Source of the DNA: an uncultured Erysipelotrichaceae bacterium
GTDB lineage: Bacteria > Bacillota_I > Bacilli_A > RF39 > UBA660
Reading direction: 5' to 3'
Assembly: GCA_902764545.1 (NCBI GenBank)
Contig: CACWWC010000010.1
Span: forward strand, 1 to 45,996
Length of the DNA: 45,996 nucleotides
Both the position numbers and the translations under genes were made by a program. Under the pieces are notes generated by a model. That model searched no databases and was not told where the DNA came from. It saw nothing but the letters and a program-made list of their open reading frames with translations. This document shows positions 1,985-30,217 of the stretch, in pieces. Each line of letters opens with the position of its first letter. Within the stretch, counting starts at the first letter, position 1.

Positions 1985-3187
1985 TTACCCAACCTCCAAA
2001 ATTTTAAACGCACTACTATAACTTATAAACTTGCTCATATACCCATCATCATAAGAAGAATAACCAACTATTAAAAAATTATCATCTATACTTTTTATAT
2101 CGGTAAAAAAATCGTCCTGTTCATTATCATAAACTACACTATCAATTAAATTAAGTCCTAAATCATATTTTGCTAATACACCATCATAATTATAGTCTCC
2201 AACTGTTTTTTTATTTTTTGCATTTAAAGAAGCAATAGTTCCAATAGCTATTAAATTATTATGATTATCAACAACTAGCTTATTAAACCTTTCAATCCCA
2301 CGATTAGCATATATAGTCTGATTTATGTAGCGACAATCTAAATTATATTCAACAATCATAGCATCAGTATCGTTTTCACCAGATTTAACCGAACCACTTA
2401 CATAAATTGAATCATCAACATTTACAATACCGCTAAATCCCAAAGCATCAGTTGTTTTATAATCATTATAATCTAGATAATTTCCATCTAGGTCAAATTT
2501 AACAATAATCCCCCTATGATTTTCATCAGTACCCACAGCATAAATATTATCATCAATAACTATACAATCATTAAAAATAGCTTCCTTGCTGCTTCCATAA
2601 GAGCTACTCCATAAAAGATCCCCATCTTTACTATATTTTGCAAGAATTGCTCCTCCATCTTTATCTCCAATATGTGTATTCTTATAAATACTTTGCCCAG
2701 TCACAATATAATCATCATTGTACTTTAAAATACTTGTAAATTTAGAATTATCAAGTTGCATAAAATCTTTTTCAAAAATAATATCCCCATTTTTATCATA
2801 TTTTACAATTAAAGCTCGTCTAATAGAATCTTCATGTTCATCAATAGTCTTTTCATAACTACCAACAGAGACAATATTATCACCATCAATCACAACACCA
2901 AAAAAGGCACCATTATATCCAACATTATATAACCTCTCAAAAGTTTTTTGCTTCTTAGAATTATATTTTGACACAAAAGCTCTTTCATAATGCATTGAAT
3001 TATCGTTATTACTACCTACAGTTACATAAGAATTATTTTCAAATTCAAGCGCATTAGTCCCCGCAAAATAAATTGATTCTCGATTTTTATAAACCAGACA
3101 ATAGCTTATATAAAATACCTCTATAACAAGAATTATTATGCATACAAAAGCTAGTAATTTAAGGCGTTTATATTTTATCCTATTCAT
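1985..3187 (-). CDS. Membrane-anchored repeat protein, probable beta-propeller
   Basis: 400 residues from the ATG at 3187; the frame also opens 12 bases upstream at a TTG, but that codon overlaps the GGAGG that serves the ATG. One hydrophobic segment (about residues 9-28) follows a basic start and there is no lipobox, so it is a signal anchor with an extracytoplasmic C-terminal part. The rest repeats a pattern of roughly 45-50 residues: a YKDDYIVTGQS-like strand pair, then GAILAKYSKDGDLLWSS. This resembles delta-60/propeller repeats. A ligand or function is not evident. It lies upstream of, and is coupled to, the histidine phosphatase gene. Confidence 0.75.
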   Translation of the reverse strand: MNRIKYKRLKLLAFVCIIILVIEVFYISYCLVYKNRESIYFAGTNALEFENNSYVTVGSNNDNSMHYERAFVSKYNSKKQKTFERLYNVGYNGAFFGVVIDGDNIVSVGSYEKTIDEHEDSIRRALIVKYDKNGDIIFEKDFMQLDNSKFTSILKYNDDYIVTGQSIYKNTHIGDKDGGAILAKYSKDGDLLWSSSYGSSKEAIFNDCIVIDDNIYAVGTDENHRGIIVKFDLDGNYLDYNDYKTTDALGFSGIVNVDDSIYVSGSVKSGENDTDAMIVEYNLDCRYINQTIYANRGIERFNKLVVDNHNNLIAIGTIASLNAKNKKTVGDYNYDGVLAKYDLGLNLIDSVVYDNEQDDFFTDIKSIDDNFLIVGYSSYDDGYMSKFISYSSAFKILEVG

Positions 3188-3252
3188 AAAAACCTCCAAT
3201 CTATCCTCTACTACTATTATTGTAACAAATTTATTAAAGATTTTCTACCACA

Positions 3253-3288
3253 TAAAAAGAAAATATAAAATAATTATTATATTTTCTT
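3253..3288 (-). terminator. Terminator after tyrS
   Basis: On the minus strand AAGAAAATATAA pairs with TTATATTTTCTT around an AT loop and is followed by TTTTT. It overlaps the tyrS stop codon and closes the tyrosine T-box operon. Confidence 0.75.
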
Positions 3289-4519
3289 ATTCATAAATCC
3301 CAATATAATACTTCTTCTTTCCACGACGAACTACAACATATTTTGAATCGATACATACATCCTTAGAAATTGTATATTCTAAATCCGTAATTTTTTCACC
3401 ATTTATTGTTATTGAAGAATTAGAAACAAACTCACGCGCTTCTCTTTTGCTAGAGCATATTTTCCCATTAACAAGAAAATCCACTATATTTACATCTTCA
3501 TTTATTGTAAATGGAATAAGTCCTTTAAACGCAATTTCAATATCCTTACCAGTAAATGACTTTATATCCCCACTAAATAAACACTCACTTATTTTAACCG
3601 CATCAAGATAAGATTCCTCTCCATGCAAATCAGTAATAATTTCTCTTGCTAATGCTTTATGAGCTTCGCGTAATTCAGGATGCTCTTTATTCTTTACATC
3701 TAACTCTTTGATTTCATCAACAGATAAAAATGTAAATATTTTCAAATAATCAATAACCATCTCATCATCCACATTAATCAAATATTGATATAACTCATAA
3801 GATGAAGTTTTATTCTCATCCAACCATAATGCATTACCCTCGCTTTTTCCAAATTTATTACCATATTTGTCAAGAACTAATGGCATTGTAAATGCATAAG
3901 CTTCTTTGCCAAGTTTTTTCTTTATTAAATCAATTCCAGTTGTAATATTTCCCCACTGATCAGAACCCTCAACTTGCATTATACAATTTTTATTTTCATA
4001 TAACCATAAAAAATCATATCCTTGAATAATCATGTATGCAAATTCAGCAAAAGTAATACCAGTCTCAAGTCTTCTTTTAATAATATCCTTATCAAGCATA
4101 TAATTAATCGTGATATATTTACCAACGTCTCTTAATACATCTGTATACTCATAACCCTTAAACCAGTCATAGTTGTTAACTACTTCAGCTTTTCCATCAA
4201 AAATCTCACTAACCTGCATTTTTATACCAGCTAAGTTTTCTGCCAACTTTTCCTTTGTAATCATTTCCCTTTCAGCAGTAGGTCTAGGATCTCCAATTAA
4301 ACCAGTAGCCCCTCCACATAAAAGGATAGGATGATGACCAGCCCTAGCCAGCCTTTTTGCAGTTACTAAACTAGAATAGTGCCCTAAATGCAAACTATCT
4401 GCAGTAGGATCAGTACCCCAATAAAAAGTAATTTTTTCATTATCCAATTTATCTTTTATATCCTCACCAGCAACATCCTTAATAAGTCCTCTCCATTCTA
4501 ATTCTTCAAATAATGTCAT
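3287..4519 (-). CDS. tyrS: Tyrosyl-tRNA synthetase
   Basis: Class I synthetase charging tRNA-Tyr. 410 residues, usual bacterial size. The HIGH signature is HLGH at 44-47 (PTADSLHLGHY), the tyrosine-binding region contains QGYDFLWL and QVEGSDQWGN, and the KMSKS equivalent is KFGKS at 222-226. A C-terminal S4-like RNA-binding domain covers about 345-405 (FLVNGKICSSKREAREFV). AAAGGAG precedes the ATG. It is third in an operon behind CYTH and cupin genes (TAA, one base, ATG after the cupin gene), under a T-box leader whose specifier reads as UAC (Tyr). Confidence 0.97.
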   Translation of the reverse strand: MTLFEELEWRGLIKDVAGEDIKDKLDNEKITFYWGTDPTADSLHLGHYSSLVTAKRLARAGHHPILLCGGATGLIGDPRPTAEREMITKEKLAENLAGIKMQVSEIFDGKAEVVNNYDWFKGYEYTDVLRDVGKYITINYMLDKDIIKRRLETGITFAEFAYMIIQGYDFLWLYENKNCIMQVEGSDQWGNITTGIDLIKKKLGKEAYAFTMPLVLDKYGNKFGKSEGNALWLDENKTSSYELYQYLINVDDEMVIDYLKIFTFLSVDEIKELDVKNKEHPELREAHKALAREIITDLHGEESYLDAVKISECLFSGDIKSFTGKDIEIAFKGLIPFTINEDVNIVDFLVNGKICSSKREAREFVSNSSITINGEKITDLEYTISKDVCIDSKYVVVRRGKKKYYIGIYE

Positions 4520-28061: not shown

Positions 28062-28197
28062 AGTTATCACCTCAAAAAATATTATATCATACTAAATTAA
28101 ATTATTTAAAGACTATTATTATGTCAATTGTTTATATAGTCATATAAAAAATGCAAATATAAAAAATATATATAGTTCATTTAAACATTTTTCTAAT

Positions 28198-28226
28198 TTG
28201 AAAAAAATAATGATGAATGATAGACT
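28198..28226 (+). promoter_or_regulatory. Possible promoter of the adhesin-sortase pair
   Basis: TTGAAA (28198-28203) and TAGACT (28221-28226) are 17 bases apart, about 35 bases before the predicted start. The -10 fits in four of six bases. The rest of 28071-28197 is very AT-rich and shows nothing else recognisable. Confidence 0.35.
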
Positions 28227-28259
28227 CTAAAACATTAAGAAAAAAAAGGAGGGATTATT

Positions 28260-29687
28260 ATAAATAAAAAAATTTTTTTCTTAATAATACTTGGCATTTT
28301 TTTATCACTTAAAGTAAATGTCCAAGCAGAAACCGCTACATTTTATGAAGGAGAATATATTGATAATATTTATATGAGTAAATATCACTATTCTTCAAAT
28401 ACAATTTACTATCAAAAAGCAAGGTTCTTTAGAAAGAATGGTACTAATGAATTTGCATATTGTATACAACCATTTGAATTTTTCAAAGATGGAACAGTAT
28501 ATGAAACAGTTATTAATCCTAATAATTTAAACAGCACTCAAAAAGAAAGAATATCAAGAATTGCACATTTTGGCTATGGATATAAAAATCATACAGACGT
28601 TAAATGGTATGCAATAACTCAGTTTATGATTTGGGAAACAGCAGACTATGCATCAGGTAAGTTCTATTTTACAGATTCATTAAATGGAAATAAAATTAAT
28701 CCATACCAAAATGAAATTGATGAAATAAACTATCTAGTTAATACATATGACAACATCCCTATTCCAAATAACAAAAAATACACTATTCGAGAAGGATCTG
28801 ATTTAGAAATAAATGCTGGAGAAGTAATTAAATACTATAGTAGCGATAACAGTAATATAATAATAGATAACCAAAAAATAAAAATCAAAGACCTAAAAGA
28901 AGGTGAATACACATTTAATTTATATAGAAATGATAATAATTATAACAAACCAATTATTTTCTATCAGTCAAACAATAGCCAAAATCTTGTTGATACAGGA
29001 AATATAAACGATAAAAAAGTTACATTTATAGTCAAAGTGGTAAAAACTGAAATAACAATTAATAAACTAGATGATGATAACAAAGATATCATACCACAAG
29101 GAGAAGCAAGTCTTGATGGTGCTATAGTTGTAATATACAATGATAAAAATGAAGAAATTAATAAGTTAACTATAAAAGATAATCAAGCTATAATAAATAA
29201 CATTGATTTTGGTACATATTACATTAAAGAAGAATTACCGGGAGAAGGATACACAAAAAACGAAGAAGTACACAAAATAACAATTGATGAAAAAAATCCG
29301 ACACAAATGTTAAACATATATAATAAGGTTATTAAAAAAAATATAAAAATAATAAAAAAATATGGTGAGGGTGACAATTTTAATTCAGAAAAAAATATTG
29401 ATTTTGAAATATATGACAAAAACAATAAATTAATAAATACTATTTCCACAAATGAATATGGAGAAGCTATGATTACACTACCATACGGTAAATACAAATT
29501 TATTCAAAAAAACACCACTAAAGGATACCAAATAGTTGCACCATTTGATATCAATGTAGACAATAATGATGATGAAATTATTGAGTTAAAAGATTTAAGA
29601 ATTCCAGTTCCAAATACATATTCTGAAAGAAAAATAGATATAAGCACTATAATAAAGATAATATCATTCATACTATTTTTATGGTAA
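28260..29687 (+). CDS. Cys-Gln thioester-domain surface adhesin with CnaB-like repeats
   Basis: 475 residues if started at the ATA at 28260, seven bases after AGGAGG. This yields MNKKIFFLIILGIFLSLKVN...VQAET, a normal signal peptide. The first in-frame ATG (28374) would delete it, and no GTG, TTG or CTG is in frame between. A thioester domain follows (Cys68 in FAYCIQPFEF, Gln121 in WYAITQFMIWETAD), able to bond covalently to host amines. Two CnaB-like modules then appear (about 255-360, with YYIKEELPGEGY, and 362-450, with YKFIQKNTTKGYQ). The C-terminus has a sorting-signal-like VPNTY, a hydrophobic helix and no basic tail: it stops at FLW. It overlaps the sortase gene by seven bases. Confidence 0.82.
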   Translation: MNKKIFFLIILGIFLSLKVNVQAETATFYEGEYIDNIYMSKYHYSSNTIYYQKARFFRKNGTNEFAYCIQPFEFFKDGTVYETVINPNNLNSTQKERISRIAHFGYGYKNHTDVKWYAITQFMIWETADYASGKFYFTDSLNGNKINPYQNEIDEINYLVNTYDNIPIPNNKKYTIREGSDLEINAGEVIKYYSSDNSNIIIDNQKIKIKDLKEGEYTFNLYRNDNNYNKPIIFYQSNNSQNLVDTGNINDKKVTFIVKVVKTEITINKLDDDNKDIIPQGEASLDGAIVVIYNDKNEEINKLTIKDNQAIINNIDFGTYYIKEELPGEGYTKNEEVHKITIDEKNPTQMLNIYNKVIKKNIKIIKKYGEGDNFNSEKNIDFEIYDKNNKLINTISTNEYGEAMITLPYGKYKFIQKNTTKGYQIVAPFDINVDNNDDEIIELKDLRIPVPNTYSERKIDISTIIKIISFILFLW

Positions 29688-30217
29688 AAAAAATATTAAA
29701 TATACTTATAATACAAATTATAATTTTATCATCATTAACGTTAATAAAAATTAATCATGAATCAATTAAAGAAACAGCAATTCCATCATTTTTGATAATT
29801 CATAAACAAAAAAATAAAGATAAATTAGGAAAATTATCAATTGAATCATTAAAAATTAATGAATTAATATACCAAATTGGGAGTGAAGAAAACACAGTTG
29901 ACAAACATGTAACTATATTAAAAGAGTCAGTTCTTCCAGACAAAGAGAAAAGTATAGTTTTTTTGGCAGCACATTCAGGTACGGGAGAAAACTCATACTT
30001 TGAAAATTTAAAAAATATAACAGTGAATACTATTGTTAAATTAACCATAAATAAGAAAGAATATAAATACATAGTAAAAGAAATTTGGGAGGACAGAAAA
30101 GATGGATTTATTAATATTAATAAAGAAGATAAAAATCAATTAATTTTAACAACATGTAGTCCATTCAATAAAAACAAACAATTGATAGTAAGTTGTATAG
30201 AAAAAGAGTCTAATTAA
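29681..30217 (+). CDS. Sortase, dedicated to the adjacent adhesin
   Basis: 178 residues: one N-terminal TM helix (ILNILIIQIIILSSLTLI) and a sortase barrel. The catalytic His is in LAAHSGTG (about residue 89) and the Cys in LTTCSPF (about 158). The usual catalytic Arg, expected shortly after the Cys in a basic-LIV context, is replaced: the sequence reads NKNKQLIVSC, giving Gln or Lys depending on alignment. No good RBS precedes the ATG, which lies inside the end of the adhesin gene (ATGGTAA), so translation probably depends on coupling. It should anchor the adhesin to the wall or polymerise it. Confidence 0.82.
   Translation: MVKKILNILIIQIIILSSLTLIKINHESIKETAIPSFLIIHKQKNKDKLGKLSIESLKINELIYQIGSEENTVDKHVTILKESVLPDKEKSIVFLAAHSGTGENSYFENLKNITVNTIVKLTINKKEYKYIVKEIWEDRKDGFININKEDKNQLILTTCSPFNKNKQLIVSCIEKESN

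Follow-up and report, generated by a model that had tools for sequence, protein, structure and literature searches.

A conserved AUA, AUU or AUC start and a predicted 5'-terminal hairpin at a thioester adhesin gene of an uncultured Erysipelotrichaceae lineage

A thioester-domain (TED) adhesin gene lies in the window, the whole 45,996-nucleotide stretch of contig CACWWC010000010.1 analysed here, and the ATA at position 28260 seems to be its real initiation codon. This ATA is most likely a deliberately weak start that is rescued by a strong Shine-Dalgarno sequence and would supply the adhesin and a coupled sortase at a low level from an mRNA with a predicted 5'-terminal hairpin. The element is larger than first seen and consists of a predicted promoter, a predicted 5' hairpin, an AUH (ATA/ATT/ATC) start and a coupled sortase gene, with a genus-wide distribution. 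When the sequences of relatives are compared, the AUH start, both hairpin arms, the promoter geometry and the stop/start overlap between the two genes are all conserved.

The adhesin gene and its start in the window

The adhesin gene has the following features.
28260..29687, + strand: adhesin gene, 475 aa, with TED (PF08341) and SpaA/Cna-B-like domains (PF17802)
28246..28253, + strand: Shine-Dalgarno sequence AAGGAGGG, in the loop of the predicted hairpin
28260..28262, + strand: initiation codon ATA; 31/38 species of the genus have AUH here
28260..28328, + strand: signal peptide, from the translation, with its boundary set by inspection
28455..28742, + strand: thioester domain (PF08341, E=1.3e-10), with conserved YC and TQ..IW motifs
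29601..29684, + strand: C-terminal PVPNT motif and hydrophobic tail, a probable sorting signal; (I/V)PNT/PDT followed by a hydrophobic tail is conserved

The original prediction of AGGAGG at 28247-28252 followed at normal spacing by ATA 28260 is borne out by the sequence and by the orthologue alignment. The Shine-Dalgarno run AAGGAGGG at 28246-28253 includes this AGGAGG, and ATA 28260 lies 7 nt 3' of GGAGG. The adhesin frame is closed on its 5' side by TAA at 28236 and ends with TAA at 29685-29687. The near-cognate codons between the Shine-Dalgarno sequence and the signal peptide are solely ATT 28254, ATT 28257 and ATA 28260. As had been claimed, the frame from the stop at 28236 holds no ATG, GTG, TTG or CTG 5' of ATG 28374. 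A start at ATG 28374 was rejected, as it would have virtually no Shine-Dalgarno sequence and would lose the signal peptide; the longest Shine-Dalgarno match is 2 nt there and 8 nt at ATA 28260. An upstream NUG or an in-frame extension was rejected as well, with the stop at 28236 blocking the frame and the frame 5' of the start not conserved in relatives. The encoded protein carries a thioester domain with both the Cys and the Gln motifs of a TED.

Predicted promoter and 5'-terminal hairpin

The predicted features upstream of and around the start are as follows.
28197..28200, + strand: predicted -35 element TTTG, 37 nt before the predicted +1
28218..28226, + strand: predicted extended -10 element TGATAGACT, consensus TGnTAnnnT, from column conservation in 71 orthologues
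28234, + strand: predicted transcription start, the R of RTTAAGAA, from promoter spacing
28234..28246, + strand: left hairpin arm ATTAAGAAAAAAA, with the conserved core RTTAAGAA at 28234-28241
28273..28285, + strand: right hairpin arm, TTTTTTTCTTAAT region, codons 5-9, with the conserved core TTCTTAAY at 28278-28285

TTTG lies exactly 37 nt 5' of the R of RTTAAGAA in 60/68 orthologues where it was found, and the predicted start has C at -1 in 69/71 and a purine at +1 in 71/71. TTTG and TGnTAnnnT together look like a sigma-A-type extended -10 promoter with its start point on this R. From the promoter geometry, read from sequence alone, the mRNA is therefore predicted to open with the left arm of the hairpin, with roughly 25 nt of 5' UTR.

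RTTAAGAA stands just 5' of the Shine-Dalgarno sequence in all 71 orthologues (as RTCAAGAA in one), and TTCTTAAY follows downstream within the coding sequence. RUUAAGAA at the 5' end of the mRNA can pair with codons 6/7-8 (UUC UUA AY), leaving the Shine-Dalgarno sequence and the start codon in the loop. The codons TTC and TTA are invariant in 71/71 orthologues, and they make up 24% of Phe and 54% of Leu codons, respectively, in these genes. AUH members have stems of 10-13 bp, and most sequences of the ATG sister group have stems of 8 bp. In 38 of 39 same-genus genomes there is a single copy of the pattern TTAAGAA...GGAGG...TTCTTAA, always at the adhesin gene, and a reversed-pattern control gave zero matches in the 39 genomes. 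Across the order, the hairpin pattern occurs in 17/241 genomes from five genera, and the matches sit at the adhesin gene. In the source genome a flanking 8-bp inverted repeat is an uncommon feature of GGAGG sites, present at 4 of 301. An Rfam search of the hairpin element returned no match.

The inverted repeat RTTAAGAA...TTCTTAAY could also be a DNA operator for a repressor of the promoter rather than an RNA hairpin, with the AUH start a separate matter. As in a protein site, seven of eight positions of the arms hardly vary, and the spacing between the arms clusters at 31-36 nt. Some leaders, moreover, do not favour the hairpin fold: the leader in the window favours other local folds in part, as do several relatives, and its arm pairing is 0.12. 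However, the arm spacing ranges over 28-37 nt, and the element occurs once per genome. The outer base pair (+1 and its partner) is A-T in 31, G-C in 27 and G-T in 13 of the 71 orthologues and A-C in 0, so that it allows G-T and never A-C, although this pattern is supportive and not proof because related sequences share ancestry. Thermodynamic arm pairing averages 0.57, compared with 0.22 in synonymous variants. An operator is thus unlikely, and the RNA hairpin is the preferred reading. Two orthologues show arm changes in which pairing, judged by eye, is seemingly kept (L213, ATAAAAA/TTTTTAT; L223, GTTAAGA/TCTTGGC). Promoter geometry and arm conservation favour a position of the putative hairpin at the 5' end of the mRNA, an end that is itself predicted, in a family where some leaders are calculated to prefer other folds.

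Conservation of the start codon among relatives

The relatives comprise same-genus genomes and 31 further loci from named genome contigs, mostly of gut or rumen Bacilli; the collections compared hold one genome per species, and the genomes appear to be mostly metagenome assemblies. Every same-genus genome of the search has an adhesin homologue. Close orthologues are 44-58% identical, and one 58%-complete genome has a distant match only. As an alignment of the locus had been proposed to reveal, the codon at the aligned position is ATA, ATT or ATC in 31/38 same-genus species with the element and ATG in 7/38. Among 71 distinct orthologues (duplicates removed), the aligned start is ATA in 19, ATC in 8, ATT in 5, ATG in 37 and TTG in 2, and the ATG starts stand in exactly the same alignment column as ATA. 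In the AUH members, the first two bases are invariably A and T and the third is A, C or T, while the preceding codon is variable. The strong Shine-Dalgarno sequence at normal spacing is retained in the orthologues, and paralogous TED proteins of the genus have conventional ATG starts.

The maximum-likelihood tree requires 3 changes between AUH and NUG (shuffles average 23) and 10 switches among A, T and C; its deep nodes are weakly supported, and a single origin of AUH is not claimed. Because dN/dS between AUH pairs is 0.11-0.26, the adhesin genes with AUH starts are functional. Had the start drifted and died, its first two bases would have been lost and the gene would have decayed, and neither is seen. 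AUH is not required, since the seven same-genus species with ATG pair it with the same hairpin.

Drift, in which the cell tolerates low expression and AUH is kept without selection, is a rather improbable account of these data. Genomes of 25% GC favour A or T third bases, and ATG, TTG and AUH are all present in the wider family. However, ATG could be regained by one common substitution, and yet this is rare inside the AUH group; both the hairpin and the Shine-Dalgarno sequence are kept, and TTG, another weak start, recurs in sister genera (L007, L151/L234, L214, L216, L218, L222, L230). This recurrence suggests that low initiation, rather than AUH itself, may be the selected trait. Beyond the 39 same-genus genomes compared, orthologues with the hairpin start unusually often with TTG and in no case with GTG.

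The original prediction had left a choice between a deliberately weak start and an ATG-to-ATA change that silences a costly surface antigen, with an assembly error hiding a true ATG as a further possibility. The first is supported by AUH in 31/38 species, by the constraint to AU followed by A, U or C, and by intact genes under purifying selection. Silencing or error in this single genome is extremely improbable: ATA is one base from ATG and 7 same-genus species have ATG, but 31 species from independent assemblies read ATA, ATT or ATC, a number that makes a shared assembly error implausible, and purifying selection acts on the genes, which are intact.

Other starts and decoding in the genome and genus

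AUH starts were surveyed in part of the source genome, a 446-kb sample with 419 long ORFs. ATA 28260, with its 8-nt Shine-Dalgarno match, ties for the best-supported AUH start among the 419 ORFs, and NUG with a Shine-Dalgarno sequence was found in 313/352 ORFs of the sample. A genome-wide AUH habit was ruled out, as most ORFs have NUG and a Shine-Dalgarno sequence, with infC as the expected exception. The same scan recovered the ATC start of infC, which is ATC almost throughout the genus (L096-L125) and ATA in L118. These cells therefore rely on an AUH start at the gene where one would be expected.

Of the tied cases, a CDF-type transporter gene (L132:9593; G000:C3:9593) was compared with relatives; it seems to have an ATA start, or GTG three codons 5'. 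It was rejected as a conserved AUH start, being private to the source genome with ATG in the orthologues. In addition, a SpoIVFB-like peptidase gene (L139 ~3084-3818, minus strand; G000:C6:23084-23818) lacks a usable N-terminal ATG, GTG or TTG in most of the 15 loci from the genus. Since its reading frame differs from that of the upstream gene that it overlaps, its translation would begin at AUH or follow a -1 frameshift within an A-rich run.

Efficient use of AUH in the genus through a dedicated initiator tRNA or through altered decoding would fit the freedom of the third base among A, U and C, but it is hardly credible, since the sampled rest of the genome has few AUH starts and the tRNAs found in this 93.5%-complete genome are ordinary (three with CAU, plus Ile-GAU), with no special initiator tRNA seen in the set.

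The downstream sortase gene

The adhesin gene is followed by a second gene.
29681..30217, + strand: sortase-family gene (PF04203), with its ATG on the adhesin stop (overlap ATGGTAA) and no Shine-Dalgarno sequence of its own

The same arrangement, a sortase ATG on the adhesin stop with no Shine-Dalgarno sequence, is found at most same-genus loci, where the junction reads ATGGTAA, ATGTTAA or ATGA. Because the sortase start sits on the stop codon and lacks a Shine-Dalgarno sequence, its translation would need ribosomes that finish the adhesin. The weak adhesin start would then probably cap the output of adhesin and sortase alike. In L006, L010 and L061, the sortase start itself reads ATA, and the overlap is ATAA, not ATGA. 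The sortase-like protein keeps His98 and Cys159 in the window and in 55 orthologues from several genera. Near the expected position of the catalytic Arg of sortases, sequence alignment of the 55 orthologues shows a conserved Gln and no conserved Arg.

Comparison with known systems

The infC gene, which encodes IF3, is the textbook gene with an AUU, AUC or AUA start and is autoregulated through IF3. Like the adhesin gene, it combines a conserved AUH start, AUC in this genus, with a strong Shine-Dalgarno sequence. Unlike infC, the adhesin gene does not encode an initiation factor, and it combines a predicted 5'-terminal hairpin with a coupled sortase gene. In excerpts of a report on Staphylococcus aureus, infC starts with AUA, conserved AUH sites have extended Shine-Dalgarno sequences, and in poor medium the yield from the AUU start of cvfC1 and the AUA starts of ccpN and citZ is about 10% of that from AUG; in rich medium, ccpN reaches up to 30% (PMC13009471). 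These three genes resemble the adhesin gene in their AUH start and extended Shine-Dalgarno sequence, and the starts of cvfC1 and ccpN are conserved across relatives (PMC13009471). However, cvfC1 encodes a small putative zinc-finger protein, ccpN a repressor and citZ citrate synthase, and the excerpts note no 5'-terminal hairpin like that of the adhesin for any of the three (PMC13009471).

Fixed non-NUG starts at single genes, as at the adhesin gene, also appear in excerpts on E. coli pcnB, with AUU (cited in PMC13009471 and generally known), on Listeria, with infC ATT and rnhC ATC (PMC13068326), and on Borrelia pncA, where AUU is confirmed by structure (PMC13398362). In a Listeria rsbW reporter, the order is ATG > ATA > ATT (PMC13068326). 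Unlike the window gene, pcnB, rnhC and pncA encode non-adhesins, and genus-wide interchange of A, U and C is not reported for them in these excerpts.

Bacillus mRNAs are stabilised by 5' hairpins and by strong Shine-Dalgarno sequences near the 5' end, as in the aprE 5' stem-loop, ermC and the cryIIIA STAB-SD (PMC3997798). The adhesin leader likewise has a predicted hairpin and a strong Shine-Dalgarno sequence at or near the mRNA 5' end. In contrast to these stabilisers, its Shine-Dalgarno sequence and start codon lie inside the loop and its right arm is coding, and stabilisation is putative. The window adhesin shares with TED adhesins a signal peptide, a TED with Cys and Gln motifs and SpaA/Cna-B-like domains; it differs in being short and in having a PNT-type instead of an LPXTG tail, its own sortase-like partner and an unusual start codon. 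AUH starts have precedents in infC, pcnB, cvfC1 and ccpN, and an adhesin with a 5'-terminal hairpin would be new.

A model for low-level expression and its significance

The mRNA probably begins at 28234, and its first 8-13 nt can pair with codons 5-9. The hairpin may protect the mRNA 5' end or tune initiation. An ordinary initiator tRNA would read ATA 28260, and the weakness of this codon would be offset by the strong Shine-Dalgarno sequence, with the yield of this core surface adhesin held low. Low sortase levels would follow through translational coupling. By analogy with known systems, IF3 would be the probable discriminator against the ATA start, and a low-yield, probably IF3-sensitive start on a 5'-protected mRNA is the most likely reading. 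More tentatively, and with less than even confidence, the promoter-anchored hairpin, of a kind not known to have been described, and the AUH start might form a genus-wide translational switch, through which adhesin and sortase synthesis would follow a physiological signal such as the supply of IF3 or ribosomes, the state of growth or the temperature.

To our knowledge, very few bacterial genes have conserved non-NUG starts, and most of these encode IF3 or regulators. In these genomes, a gene caller restricted to NUG would overlook the start or the signal peptide. The orthologues offer a natural A/U/C/G series for studies of start-codon selection. A core surface adhesin has retained AUA, AUU or AUC through at least 10 changes of the third base, which suggests selection for the weak start itself.
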